Origin: Promethearchaeota archaeon
GTDB taxonomy: Archaea; Asgardarchaeota; Lokiarchaeia; Sigyniarchaeales; SOKP01
Direction of reading: 5' to 3'
Length of the DNA: 64,000 bases
Assembly (NCBI GenBank): GCA_016930515.1
Contig: JAFGGO010000158.1
Location: 59,632-123,631 of the forward strand
Made by a program: the position numbers and the translations under genes. Positions within the stretch are counted from its first letter, which is position 1, and every line of letters starts with the position of its first letter. The notes beneath the pieces are model-generated. The model did not search any database. It was not told the DNA's origin and saw only the letters and a list, made by a program, of their open reading frames with translations. This document shows positions 17,517-64,000 of this stretch, one piece after another.

Positions 17517-17590
17517 TCTTACTTAAAAATCTTTTTTTAAGAAATACATTCGTTTTAAAAAAAATTAGTTTGTTATAAATTAATAAAAAT

Positions 17591-17694
17591 AGCCCAGAGC
17601 GGATTCGAACCGCTGTCGCGGGGTATCCTCGAAAGCATTTAAAAAAATTACATTCTTCAAAGCCCCAAATGCTTGGCCACTACACCACTGGGCT
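17591..17694 (-). tRNA. tRNA-Gln(UUG) with 32-nt intron (17625..17656) at position 37/38
   Basis: Acceptor AGCCCAG/CTGGGCT, T-arm AGCGGTTCGAATCCGCT, spliced anticodon arm TGGGG-CTTTGAA-CCCCG; intron junctions fit a bulge-helix-bulge. Confidence 0.93.
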
Positions 17695-58450: not shown

Positions 58451-58885
58451 TTAGGTATAAGAACCGTTTGGAATGATTTTATCCAAGATGGGTCTCATTT
58501 CGTTAAAAGCTTTTCTAATTTTGTGAAAATAATAGCCTAATTTATATCCTTTTGAACAATTGGTAAAAAGCATGAAATTATCTTCATGGCCGGTTACTAA
58601 AATGATAGTGTAACCTTTCGTCCCGCGAATTACGATTTCTTTTAGCTCGCCTTGAGCCAGATCTTGACTAATTTTTTCGCCCAAGGAAATGAGTGTTGCG
58701 GGGCTTGCGGAGTAAATGTCAGCCACGACATCGGCGGTTTCAGAACTCGCAATTCTCAAGCCGGTCTTGGAAACGATGGCCGTGCCTTCCAAGTCCGTGC
58801 TGCTTTCGAGGTCTTCCAGGTTTCTCATAAGCTCGTCTAGAATTTCTTGGCTCACATTTATTTCTTTTAGGTGACTTTCAGACAT
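58451..58885 (-). CDS. Roadblock/LC7 domain protein
   Basis: ILDELMRNLEDLESSTDLEGTAIVSKTGLRIASSE...ATLISLGEKISQDLAQGELKEIVIRGTKGYTIILV. Confidence 0.85.
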   Translation of the reverse strand: MSESHLKEINVSQEILDELMRNLEDLESSTDLEGTAIVSKTGLRIASSETADVVADIYSASPATLISLGEKISQDLAQGELKEIVIRGTKGYTIILVTGHEDNFMLFTNCSKGYKLGYYFHKIRKAFNEMRPILDKIIPNGSYT

Positions 58886-58932: not shown

Positions 58933-60354
58933 TTAAATCTTTTTTAGGCGATATTGTCTTAATTCTTTTAAAATTACAGGATCATTTTCGTCGATCTTGG
59001 TATTTGGAGAGACTCCAACGATGACGGCGCCCTTGGTTCCGAATGTGGCCAATACCTTGGTGAACGGTGGTTCCAGCCTCTTTCCAACTTCTTTTTTAGC
59101 ACCAATTGCGCTCTGAGCCAGTCCAGTACAAATTATCCCTTGTGAATGATATGGATTTGTTATGCGACCTTCTTTGACCTTGAATTTATGCAATACGGGT
59201 GTCGTGCCCTCTTCTAAGGCGTTGAGTAAGGACGCCGAACCAAGAATTCGAAGGTTACTTGGAGGCAAGTCCAATCTACTCAACAAAATCGTGGTTTTTT
59301 GATTTCTTAACAAGATTTTCTCGTTGAGTAGTAGAAAAGCTTTAAATTCCTTGATGTTATTTGGTATAGAGGTTTGTATCTTCTTACCTTGGTCTTCGTA
59401 ATATGGATAAATGTTTCCAACAATGGTGTTCATTCCAATGGTTAAATGTACTTGGGTTCCATACCTGGTTTCGGGCTTGAACAAGGCGCTTTTCTTGACC
59501 TGCACTTCAATAATATCTGTATAAGTAAATGATTTTTCGTCGTCAGTCATGATACAACCTCTATATACTTTGTTCAATTCAAGGTTTTTCATGTTCACGC
59601 CCACTCGATCTCCTGCTTCGGCACTCTCGACTCCTTGGTGAAACACTTCAATGCTTTTAACTCTACCCGTTTCTTGAATCGGGAGCACGTGTATGGTCTG
59701 ACCGACTTTTATTCTTCCGCTTAACACGGTACCCGTCAAGATGGCACCCATCCCTTTGATTGGAAAGTGGTGATCGATTGGAATGACCAAGTTAGCTTCA
59801 ATTTCACGCTTGATTTCCAGCTTTTTTATAGTTTCGAGAATGCCGTTCTTTAATTCTTCCACACCTTCTTTTTTTTTTGCCGATATGGGGTAGATGGGAA
59901 CATTTGTACCAAAGTCCGTGGTTGCAAAAAAATTTCTTGCTTTTTTAATCTCCATTGCCACTTCTCCCTTGAATATATCGGTTTTGTTAAGCACCACTAT
60001 CAAGTTTTTAATATCGAGCGATTCTATCATGATAATGTGTTCTCCCGTTTGAACTTGGGGGCCCTTGTTTATGTCGATAACGATTATGGCACAATCAATT
60101 ATCTCCACGGATGAAGCACTGATCTTTATCAAATCAGCGTGCCCCGGTCCGTCTACAAGGGTCACAAGATAATCTCCCAGTACGAGGCTCGTAAATCCAA
60201 GATCTATCGTGATCCCTCGCTCTTTACTTTGCGGATGAGCGTCGATGCCCGCAGTTGAGATTACTTCACTAAGCGAGGATGCCAATTCGGTCTTTCCAGA
60301 GTCTATATGCCCGAATAAACCAATGTGTACGGGAGTTTTCTTCTTGTTTTCCAT
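58933..60354 (-). CDS. selB: Selenocysteine-specific elongation factor (archaeal/eukaryal SelB/EFsec type)
   Basis: GHIDSGKTELASSLSEVISTAGIDAHPQSKERGITIDLGF, VDGPGHADLIKISASSVEIIDCAIIVID, DHHFPIKGMGAILTGTVLSG, RLDLPPSNLRILG, C-terminal GLAQSAIGAKKEVGK...TFGTKGAVI. Confidence 0.93.
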   Translation of the reverse strand: MENKKKTPVHIGLFGHIDSGKTELASSLSEVISTAGIDAHPQSKERGITIDLGFTSLVLGDYLVTLVDGPGHADLIKISASSVEIIDCAIIVIDINKGPQVQTGEHIIMIESLDIKNLIVVLNKTDIFKGEVAMEIKKARNFFATTDFGTNVPIYPISAKKKEGVEELKNGILETIKKLEIKREIEANLVIPIDHHFPIKGMGAILTGTVLSGRIKVGQTIHVLPIQETGRVKSIEVFHQGVESAEAGDRVGVNMKNLELNKVYRGCIMTDDEKSFTYTDIIEVQVKKSALFKPETRYGTQVHLTIGMNTIVGNIYPYYEDQGKKIQTSIPNNIKEFKAFLLLNEKILLRNQKTTILLSRLDLPPSNLRILGSASLLNALEEGTTPVLHKFKVKEGRITNPYHSQGIICTGLAQSAIGAKKEVGKRLEPPFTKVLATFGTKGAVIVGVSPNTKIDENDPVILKELRQYRLKKI

Positions 60355-60592
60355 TTATGATTTAAAAAGCGTTTCGTTTTCTGTAACAAGATAAAGCATT
60401 CTTTCTTCTAAAATATTGATTTTTTATTTGATTTGTGCCTCTTCGCATCGTCCTTATTGAGTATTTAATTAAGATAAATCAAATTAGAAAAATCAAAAAC
60501 CGAACTCCCAATATTTTTTATTAAATTGTTCTGATTATATAATTAATCCAAACATTTTCGTTTGGTAAAACATTTAAAATTTGAAATAAAAA

Positions 60593-61462
60593 ATGAAATT
60601 TTGTGTATATTGTGGTAATCCTGTCAAACCAAACGACAAGTATTGCATTGCCTGCGGAAAACCCTTGCTTACGAACTCCGCTTATAAAGAAGCGGCAACA
60701 GGTAAAAAAGAAAAGGAGAAAGTAGCCTCGAAACAAGTGGAAATATTACCTAAGGAAGAAGAAGAAATTAAACCAAAAAAGGAGGAAAAGGAAGTAGAGA
60801 AAGAGAATCTGGGAGAAGATGAGGAAAGCAAGCCCGAGAATTTTGTTGTTGAAGCCATCCCCCTTCCAGACGATGTGAAGCATCAAATCGATTTATATAT
60901 TCGATCCACGGAAATAGACTTCAACAAGCAAACACTCTCTCAAAAATTAACAGATATCCTTAATGAAACGAAATCAGCTCAATATGAAACAGATTTTGAC
61001 TTCAAGCAGAAAACAAATGTAAAATTGGAAGCCGTAAAACAATTGATTTCTGACCTAAAACAAGAAGAGTCCGAGATAAAAGGTGAAATGGACGATGTGT
61101 TCATAATCAAGAGGTTAAACAAGAACATCGATACCAAGGTTTTTCAACTCAAGAATCTAACCAGAGAATATCGTTTAAAAAAGATGAACAAGGAAACGTT
61201 TGAAAAGCTAAGAGAAAAATATAAGACCGAAAAGGATTCCGCAGATATGGAAAAAGCCGAATTGCTCATGGGAATCAAGCTCTGGATTCAAGAACTAAAA
61301 ACGGAAAAAACTGAACTCATGGGCGACAAAAAACTGAATAAAGGACGATTTTCTTCGAAAGAAATCACGCAGGAACAGTACAAAACTTCAGACGCGGACT
61401 ATAAAATCAAGATCGAAAAACTTACTAAGAAAATTGCAACACTAGAAGATCTTTCCAAATAA
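60593..61462 (+). CDS. Double zinc-ribbon protein with coiled-coil C-terminus
   Basis: MKFCVYCGNPVKPNDKYCIACGKPL; long charged helical region. Confidence 0.7.
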   Translation: MKFCVYCGNPVKPNDKYCIACGKPLLTNSAYKEAATGKKEKEKVASKQVEILPKEEEEIKPKKEEKEVEKENLGEDEESKPENFVVEAIPLPDDVKHQIDLYIRSTEIDFNKQTLSQKLTDILNETKSAQYETDFDFKQKTNVKLEAVKQLISDLKQEESEIKGEMDDVFIIKRLNKNIDTKVFQLKNLTREYRLKKMNKETFEKLREKYKTEKDSADMEKAELLMGIKLWIQELKTEKTELMGDKKLNKGRFSSKEITQEQYKTSDADYKIKIEKLTKKIATLEDLSK

Positions 61463-61521
61463 GAATGAAAATTTGCCAAAATGGAAATTTTATTTAACGG
61501 TAAAAAATTAAATTTCTTAAA

Positions 61522-61641
61522 ATGAGACGCTCACTAATTGCTACTATCATACTGTTGGTTGCTCTATCGTTATTAACTTTTGGGATCATCCAAGGTCAAT
61601 ACGAGTCGATAGCGTACTTTTACCAACAGATGGGTGCATAA
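61522..61641 (+). CDS. Single-TM microprotein (39 aa; missing from ORF track)
   Basis: Manual translation: MRRSLIATIILLVALSLLTFGIIQGQYESIAYFYQQMGA*. Confidence 0.5.
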   Translation: MRRSLIATIILLVALSLLTFGIIQGQYESIAYFYQQMGA

Positions 61642-61670
61642 ACAAGAATATTTTTTTGAGAAAATCAAAT

Positions 61671-61970
61671 TCATTCTCCCAAGTACTGGCCTTTCTTGCC
61701 TGCTTTTAAGTCGTCTAAAAAACCCTTCTTCTGGTATAATTTCTCTTCTGATTTTCTGACCTTATTCGCTTCTTTATAGTGTGACTTACAAAGAAAGACC
61801 TTATGTTGCTTGTTTTCTTCAATGTTTAGCTTGGCCTTTTCCAAATACTTGTTCCACTTATTTTCCGAAAGCGAACGAATCGCTGGTTGCTTGCACTCCA
61901 CTACGGAGCAACTCTTCGATTTACTCACGCCTATTTCCTTTTTTTCTCTCATTTCCTTGGGAAGTTTCAT
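61671..61970 (-). CDS. Small basic Cys-containing hypothetical protein
   Basis: CSVVECKQPAIRSL...VFLCKSHYKEANK suggests one zinc site (C-x5-C...C-x2-H). Confidence 0.55.
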   Translation of the reverse strand: MKLPKEMREKKEIGVSKSKSCSVVECKQPAIRSLSENKWNKYLEKAKLNIEENKQHKVFLCKSHYKEANKVRKSEEKLYQKKGFLDDLKAGKKGQYLGE

Positions 61971-62050
61971 TTTTTCTCACGTGCTAAATTTAATTTTGAA
62001 TACAGAATTATGAAAAATAATAGTTAGTGTTTTATATTTTTTGTCATACG

Positions 62051-62782
62051 ATGAGTTCTCTAAATCTCTTGTTCAACGAGGAGCTAATTAAGGAAAAGAT
62101 ATATACCCTTAGTTCTCCCAATAGGATAACCCTGACGGACGATCACTTTACTAAGTCTGCGGTTTTGTTTACGATAATTCCTTGCGAGGAAAAACCATAC
62201 GAATTGGTTTTGATTCGACGCTCTGAAGAGGGAAGGCGCCATAGGGGAGAAATGGCCTTTCCTGGAGGAAAGTTTGATCCCAAGTTTGATAATTCTTTGA
62301 CCGATACGGTTTTAAGGGAAACTTGCGAGGAAATTGGCGTGCCAAGGAAAAAGGTGAAATTGTTAGGGTGCCTCCACGACTATCCTACCATGACTAATTT
62401 CATCATAACTCCCTTCGTAGGAGTGATCGATAAAGACCAGCAGCTTACAAAACAAGAAAGAGAAGTGCAACAAATCGTGAAAGTACCAATAGAATTTTTC
62501 GCTAATAAAATAAATTTTAGCGAGCGACCAATGTCATTTGGCAATAGTTATTTTCCCGTATATTATTTCAATTTCAAAACAAATAAAAAGAACTACATGA
62601 TATGGGGCGCAACGGCTTTCATGATAGTAAGTTTCATTAAGATAGTCTACGATTACGAGATCTCCGAGTTAGGCTCGCAAGAATTTCGAGTGAAGGAATT
62701 GAAAAACTTTAAGAATTTCATTCTCAGCGAAGATTACGCCAATTACCTCCGCCAATTCAAGGATTTTTCGCACAAATTCTAA
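62051..62782 (+). CDS. NUDIX hydrolase, CoA pyrophosphatase-like
   Basis: GEMAFPGGKFDPKFDNSLTDTVLRETCEEIG Nudix box; RRSEEGRRHRGEMAFPGG; ATG at 62051. Confidence 0.9.
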   Translation: MSSLNLLFNEELIKEKIYTLSSPNRITLTDDHFTKSAVLFTIIPCEEKPYELVLIRRSEEGRRHRGEMAFPGGKFDPKFDNSLTDTVLRETCEEIGVPRKKVKLLGCLHDYPTMTNFIITPFVGVIDKDQQLTKQEREVQQIVKVPIEFFANKINFSERPMSFGNSYFPVYYFNFKTNKKNYMIWGATAFMIVSFIKIVYDYEISELGSQEFRVKELKNFKNFILSEDYANYLRQFKDFSHKF

Positions 62783-62844
62783 TCCTTTAAATAGCGCATT
62801 TGAAAAGATCAAGTATTAATATATAAAAAGCGATTAATAATTAC

Positions 62845-63582
62845 ATGAAAAAAAAAACTATAGCAAAAAATAAAACCAATATATTTCTTATCATTTTTGC
62901 AGTAATCCTCGTTGTGATCACGATATTGTGTGTATTATATCCTGATGTTGGTCAGTATTTTGACTTGGGAAAGTGGTTCAACCCGAATGCATTAGGAGCG
63001 GTGAATTATTGGGTCGCCATCGGGTTCGTCTCCTTGCTGTGTTTTCTTGGTGCTCTCGTGCCCGTCCCCATACCTTACATGATACCTGTTGCCTTATTCA
63101 CTCAAGCTTGGATTGGTGTTTTTGATTACGCTTGGATTCTGATCGTGGGATTGGTCTTCTTTTCGGCGCTTTCGAACACGATAGGCGACCTCTTGGATTA
63201 TTACGTGGGTCGCGGTGCGGAACACGTGCTCAGTCAAGACGATCCGGAAATTCAGAATCGATGGTCCCAGATCATTTTAAAAAAACCCCAATTTATTCCG
63301 TTTATCATCTTGATATTTGGCATTACTCCACTTCCAGAATCGCTTTTAATGATTCCCCTTGGTATCGTAAAGTACGACTTGAAAAAGACATTCTTTTGGA
63401 TGTTTATGGGAAAGATACTCATGATGCTCTTGATGGTGCTTTTTGGAGTTTTTGCTTGGAATCTTGGAATTTTTTCAGGTGAAGGTGAAAGTGGGTGGAT
63501 TTTGGGAGTCGCTTCTTTATGGGCAATATGGGCAATCATGCTATTGATGGTAAAGTACAAACCAAAAAAGAACTCCGCTTGA
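62845..63582 (+). CDS. VTT/DedA-like (SNARE-associated-type) membrane protein
   Basis: SNTIGDLLDYYVGRGAEHVL...PFIILIFGITPLPESLLMIPLGIVKYDLKKTFFWMFMGKIL. Confidence 0.65.
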   Translation: MKKKTIAKNKTNIFLIIFAVILVVITILCVLYPDVGQYFDLGKWFNPNALGAVNYWVAIGFVSLLCFLGALVPVPIPYMIPVALFTQAWIGVFDYAWILIVGLVFFSALSNTIGDLLDYYVGRGAEHVLSQDDPEIQNRWSQIILKKPQFIPFIILIFGITPLPESLLMIPLGIVKYDLKKTFFWMFMGKILMMLLMVLFGVFAWNLGIFSGEGESGWILGVASLWAIWAIMLLMVKYKPKKNSA

Positions 63583-63602
63583 ATTTATTATTGGAAGTGA
63601 TA

Positions 63603-63821
63603 TTATTTTTTTATTTTAACCCCTATAGTAGTTGAAATGGGATAGAAGACACCACAATCAATGCATCGAAAAACAAACTTGTTGGATTTTTCCTCCCAAA
63701 AGCTTATTCTCTCGCTTCCACAATACTCGCATGTTTTTGGGAGGGCGTCTAGGACTCTTTTACTGATCTTGTTTAACATTCTTTTTTTCTCATCTTCTTC
63801 ATGTGAAACGAATCCATACAT
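63603..63821 (-). CDS. Small zinc-ribbon protein
   Basis: CEYCGSERISF...FRCIDCGVFY. Confidence 0.6.
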   Translation of the reverse strand: MYGFVSHEEDEKKRMLNKISKRVLDALPKTCEYCGSERISFWEEKSNKFVFRCIDCGVFYPISTTIGVKIKK

Positions 63822-63953
63822 TTTTGTAAAATTGCACTTTTAAAAATTTCGATTCTGAAAAATGTACTGAATTAAAAATCAAATTAAAAAAAAAATCCCG
63901 AATCGAAATATTCAATAAATTTCGCTCGTTTTATTATTTAAAAAAACTCACAT

Positions 63954-64000
63954 GGCCCTTGACGGTTAGAGTGGTCTCTGACGCTGGGCTTCAAACCCAG
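63954..64000 (+). tRNA. selC: tRNA-Sec (UCA), 5' part, truncated by window end
   Basis: GGCCCTTGA acceptor strand; 7-bp D-stem GTTAGAG-tggt-CTCTGAC; anticodon arm CTGGG-CTTCAAA-CCCAG with TCA anticodon. Confidence 0.88.

Follow-up and report, generated by a model that had tools for sequence, protein, structure and literature searches.

The window, by which we mean the whole 64,000-nt stretch of DNA analyzed here, carries at its right end a gene for the selenocysteine (Sec)-specific elongation factor SelB and the 5′ half of a tRNA-Sec gene, the remainder of which lies on a second contig of the same assembly. The features of the locus are:

58451–58885, minus strand: Roadblock/LC7 protein, conserved neighbor immediately downstream of SelB
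58933–60354, minus strand: SelB/archaeal EFSec, selenocysteine-specific elongation factor (473 aa), assigned by domain, structure and tree matches
60593–61462, plus strand: zinc-ribbon protein, conserved neighbor between SelB and tRNA-Sec
61671–61970, minus strand: small conserved ORF, at the same position in relatives
62027–62782, plus strand: NUDIX hydrolase, conserved neighbor, start codon tentative
63954–64000, plus strand: 5′ 47 nt of tRNA-Sec (UCA), with the acceptor 5′ strand, 7-bp D-stem and anticodon arm
Contig C134: remainder of tRNA-Sec, with the variable arm, T arm with 30-nt intron, acceptor 3′ strand, G73 and encoded CCA

The ORF at 58933–60354 contains the GTPase motifs named in a preliminary description of this DNA, which had assigned it to a SelB-type GTPase of the archaeal/eukaryal kind, with a short domain IV and not the winged helices of bacteria. 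Both assignments are borne out. The protein matches the Pfam domain aSelB_III (E = 3e-8), and scores with the EF-Tu, EF1A and aIF2-gamma models lie far under the respective cut-offs. The top solved structure is SelB of Methanococcus maripaludis (4ac9, E = 2.2e-87), with residues 9–468 aligned end to end with residues 20–481 of 482, and because the alignment runs through to the C-terminal end of 4ac9, domain IV is of the archaeal form; the match with human EFSec in the structure search is limited to the N-terminal domains. The architecture consists of EF-Tu-like domains I–III and the short archaeal domain IV (PF21440), without bacterial winged helices. In a tree built with archaeal SelB, human EFSec, bacterial SelB and the EF1A of this genome, with aIF2-gamma left out, the window's SelB joins the archaeal SelB and human EFSec sequences with support of 98/100, and this EF1A and bacterial SelB fall outside; this is not the placement within aEF1A/aIF2-gamma, in a genome with no Sec genes elsewhere, that the preliminary description had named as the contrary outcome. 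The tree defines the group and not the branching order inside it, and consequently no claim is made on the closeness of this SelB to eukaryotes. Among 227 genomes from the phylum, 121 have a relative of SelB at E ≤ 1e-30. The score of 238.4 bits with the NCBIfam selB model, slightly below its cut-off of 242.25 bits, could be taken to indicate a general EF1A-like factor in a genome that does not decode UGA as Sec, but the tree placement, the full-length alignment with the solved archaeal SelB, and, as described below, the full set of pathway genes together with UGA-containing frames followed by SECIS-like hairpins all contradict this explanation, to which we assign a negligible probability. Four other genomes of the class show an in-frame UGA in their SelB gene, a possible sign that SelB is a selenoprotein there, but this UGA is the normal stop, the few residues beyond it being aligned by chance.

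Window base 64000 is the end of contig C27, and because the contig stops there the 5′ half of tRNA-Sec alone scores under the Rfam threshold. The segment from 63954 to 64000 nevertheless includes the whole D arm, with a stem of 7 bp and a loop of 4 nt, and the anticodon arm CTGGG-CTTCAAA-CCCAG. An exact copy of the window's final 31 bases, the only one, sits at the end of C134, another contig in this assembly. Joining of the two contigs yields, in the 5′ part, GGCCCTTGA-CG-GTTAGAG-TGGT-CTCTGAC-G-CTGGG-CTTCAAA-CCCAG-TTATCCTGCGGAGGGATA, followed in the 3′ part by GGGG-TTCGA[insert]TT-CCCC-TCGAGGGCC-G-CCA. The joined gene has a UCA anticodon, 9/4 acceptor-T geometry, a 7-bp D-stem with a 4-nt loop, a long variable arm and G73, with 9/7/5/4 pairs formed, and SepSecS starts a few tens of bases past it. 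The overlap is merely 31 nt and both contigs stop there, as might be expected if the UCA tRNA were broken or unrelated and the join to C134 a chance overlap. However, the match is exact and at two contig ends, the acceptor stem pairs 9/9 across the join, SepSecS lies directly behind, and long contigs of relatives share the gene order, making a chance join extremely unlikely. The UCA tRNA noted earlier at the right edge is the 5′ half of tRNA-Sec, and in place of the failure to fold with its 3′ half that had been envisaged as evidence against it, the fold is complete once C134 is added. The T-loop of the joined gene is interrupted by the 30-nt insert, an intron that lies in the 3′ half and was thus out of view of the preliminary description. 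A second tRNA-Sec candidate in the genome, on C126, is actually tRNA-Ser GCT.

Contig breaks occur at or within ∼100 nt of tRNA-Sec in several genomes (window base 64000; L133, L134, L138 and L166), perhaps because the exons are near-identical among co-occurring species and the introns differ. Of the 89 complete tRNA-Sec genes in the phylum (e.g., L114, L119, L131), 88 have a CCA encoded behind G73, as against only 4 of the 20 other tRNA genes counted in the window's genome; a 2022 review states that CCA is not encoded in archaeal tRNA-Sec (PMC9499178).

Relatives on long contigs have the order Roadblock-SelB / zinc ribbon-small ORF-NUDIX-tRNA-Sec-SepSecS, the same as in the joined locus. SelB and tRNA-Sec are divergent in 40 of 41 same-contig cases, 3.1–6.5 kb apart with a median gap of 3.8 kb. 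Elsewhere in the class and phylum, other families have SelB next to SepSecS on the same strand (L056, L057, L058, L059, L075), and the divergent ∼4-kb order therefore looks specific to the window's family. One genome assembled as a single 3.34-Mb contig (G121) holds two SelB/tRNA-Sec/SepSecS loci in opposite orientation (L061 and L062), the tRNA-Sec genes of which differ in the D-stem intron.

The expectation of more Sec genes immediately outside the window is confirmed by SepSecS directly behind tRNA-Sec on C134 (TIGR03531, 470 bits against a cut-off of 225; PDB match 2z67), and two other genes that the preliminary description proposed to seek, PSTK and SPS, are present on C20 and, as a Sec-containing SelD, on C18. 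PSTK scores 128 bits, under the curated cut-off of 290, and its closest PDB structure is L-seryl-tRNA(Sec) kinase 3a4l. SelD has a UGA in frame at KIHGUSCKLG, and three HdrA-VhuD pairs (C122, C46, C75) have two UGAs per gene, e.g., at FVCRUGIN and CSIUILGP in HdrA and CWKUGYG and VGUYP in VhuD; the in-frame UGA of SelD, HdrA and VhuD falls at Sec/Cys sites. Since the genomes are MAGs (this one 94% complete and 5.3% contaminated), such selenoprotein counts may mix strains. Hairpins resembling SECIS elements, with a predicted function as such, follow the pattern [A/G]TGA-stem-A run-stem-GA and occur in all four 3′ UTRs (SelD and the three HdrA-VhuD sets), one of them starting with GTGA rather than ATGA. 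A search for SECIS elements of archaeal or eukaryal type had been suggested, and in four of four sets the type is eukaryote-like, as reported for Lokiarchaeia and other Asgard archaea (PMC11227280). This gene content (PSTK, SepSecS, SelD, UGA genes, SECIS) supports the earlier proposal that the genome would make selenoproteins. The window itself holds no selenoprotein, as also previously stated; its read-through ORFs are shadow frames with several UGAs. FlpD/VhuD domains without UGA are found in two very long frames, L085 (C111, 1162 aa) and L091 (C104, 852 aa), which are probably fusions beside Sec-containing stand-alone copies.

A pattern search over the 227 genomes of the phylum yielded about 90 tRNA-Sec genes, of which 62 complete genes belong to the window's family. 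Introns are present in 43 of these, two together in 30, at three sites: the D-stem (D), the anticodon loop (37/38; A) and the T-loop (T). The classes are none, 19; D, 9; T, 2; A, 2; D+T, 21; and A+T, 9, with D-intron boundaries uncertain by a few nucleotides. On removal of the introns all 62 genes become 93-nt cloverleaves with well-paired stems. The T-loop intron is found also in three genomes of a more distant family, and G081, from another family of the class, has a candidate triple-intron gene in which one D-stem mismatch remains. Apparent D-introns of G157 and G211 were excluded as alignment artefacts. Intron-bearing genes lie deep in long contigs (G121, 3.3 Mb; G107, 1.3 Mb; G156, 0.6 Mb) and hence are not contig-end artefacts. 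Many other tRNA genes in the window's genome likewise look interrupted; among them, a tRNA-Gln(TTG)-like gene with an anticodon-loop intron at 17590–17694 (minus strand) was found with the Rfam tRNA model in a whole-genome search, having been missed by ARAGORN and by a gathering-threshold scan of the window.

We infer from sequence that the insertions are introns removed by splicing. The bulge-helix-bulge form is clear at the anticodon loop, where exon CTTC pairs with intron GAAG beside a 3-nt bulge, and relaxed but strongly covarying at the T and D sites. The T arm has an outer T-stem, a pairing of exon TTC with intron GAA, a bulge of 3 nt on the 3′ side and an inner helix of 7 bp with double changes at every pair; in the D arm exon TCG pairs with intron CGA, with a 3-nt bulge and two inner helices. 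The consensus fold of the D arm contains the mature D-stem only; the intron helices were tested with a hand-written structure. In the T arm 93% of cells are paired, with 63 double-change cells versus 19 after shuffling (0/500), and in the D arm 91%, with 44 versus 11 (0/500), counts that include relatedness since the shuffle leaves kinship in. Sliding the partner columns by 1–3 reduces pairing to 50–69% (T) and 30–53% (D). Of the 32 genes that have a T-intron, 14 carry a GGAG T-stem, and none of the 30 that lack the intron does. The genome encodes two EndA paralogues, as expected for the heteromeric EndA, which removes introns at unusual sites. The insertions could alternatively be expanded arms retained in the mature tRNA, in keeping with the odd insertions and deletions, with introns unmentioned, that Sun et al. 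(2021; PMC9723677) describe in some Lokiarchaeial tRNA-Sec. However, the insertions break the T-loop, the 5′ strand of the D-stem and the anticodon loop, all of which are intact on removal; the exon-intron pairs and bulges match the splicing motif; sister genomes lack insertions entirely; both EndA paralogues are at hand; and a T-arm intron has previously been accepted for Lokiarchaeota (PMC9499178). Retention of expanded arms is therefore very unlikely, and the insertions are treated below as introns.

Intron states were mapped on a SelB gene tree of 43 sequences, and as a gene tree of MAGs it gives only approximate minimum numbers of changes (D-intron, 11; T-intron, 12; anticodon intron, 4). 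Near relatives differ wholly, for instance G127 (D+T) from G110 (none) and G117 (D+T) from G124 (none), and the window's own genus includes the states T, none and D. In a test with 20 loci, the Rfam tRNA-Sec model and ARAGORN each detected all 9 intronless genes and none of the 11 with introns, indicating that intron-broken tRNA-Sec is hidden from standard gene finders. It is likely, on this evidence, that Lokiarchaeia tRNA-Sec has repeatedly gained and lost short introns at three sites, often two and possibly three together, such that Sec decoding would depend on multi-site splicing that is invisible to standard tRNA finders. Calls of Sec use rely on detection of tRNA-Sec, and with 43 of 62 genes in one family interrupted, these two programs missed the structure of the interrupted tRNA-Sec in every tested case. 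Sister genomes differ by introns that have repeatedly appeared and been lost at three sites, with exons changing to match, which makes turnover testable in a single-purpose tRNA.

The genes, in-frame UGAs, SECIS-like hairpins, intron positions and covariation are apparent in the DNA itself and are compatible with the following course, in which transcription, splicing, charging and decoding are steps that we infer. tRNA-Sec would be transcribed from just ahead of SepSecS, a two-subunit splicing endonuclease would excise the T-loop intron, and the halves would be ligated. SerRS would load the tRNA with serine and PSTK would phosphorylate it, after which SepSecS would carry out the conversion using selenophosphate from the Sec-containing SelD. 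SelB would then bring the charged tRNA to UGA codons of the HdrA, VhuD and SelD mRNAs, each presumably marked by the eukaryote-like SECIS in its 3′ UTR. With a high degree of confidence, then, the locus is read as the selB–tRNA-Sec–SepSecS region of a Lokiarchaeon that has a Sec pathway of archaeal/eukaryal type, the intron presumably being spliced, in a family whose introns occupy up to three sites with repeated gain and loss.

The Sec pathway and one T-arm intron are already established for Lokiarchaeia. According to the accessible portions of the sources, a Sec-encoding system of Lokiarchaeota was described by Mariotti et al. (2016; doi 10.1093/molbev/msw122, via PMC5330540, PMC9499178 and PMC11227280), and a 31-nt T-arm intron in Lokiarchaeota tRNA-Sec, reported in 2016, has been called the sole archaeal case (PMC5330540, PMC9499178). 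Introns in tRNA-Sec go unmentioned in Huang et al. (2024; PMC11227280) and in a 2026 review. The window's locus belongs to an ordinary Lokiarchaeial Sec system of the kind described in 2016 (Mariotti et al.) and 2024 (Huang et al.). What is new, as far as the accessible literature goes, are the family-wide counts of introns at three sites, the two-intron genes, the covariation and the turnover. Given the multi-intron tRNAs of other Asgard classes, as far as these are described in the available parts of PMC11291895, and the other interrupted tRNAs of this genome, the phenomenon is known and the tRNA-Sec detail is new. The Asgard Sec system is a leading candidate ancestor of the eukaryotic one, and for this reason its parts list matters.

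Relative to the system of Mariotti et al. (2016), as represented in the accessible sources, the genome is a different one, the selB / tRNA-Sec–SepSecS linkage is seen family-wide, and relatives have introns at two further sites and in combinations. The genes resemble those of Atabeyarchaeia and Freyarchaeia (PMC11291895), Asgard archaea whose tRNA genes have several introns at non-canonical positions, although that survey, in its accessible portions, concerns tRNA genes generally in other Asgard classes and does not describe introns of tRNA-Sec. The anticodon-loop intron is shared with tRNA-Sec of Daphnia pulex (PMC5330540), which is, however, eukaryotic and interrupted at one site only. The likeness to the bulge-helix-bulge tRNA introns of Thermoproteales extends to short length, exon-intron pairing, non-canonical positions and two EndA paralogues; unlike those, the introns described here are in tRNA-Sec, and the D-arm intron lies within its typical extra-long D-stem.
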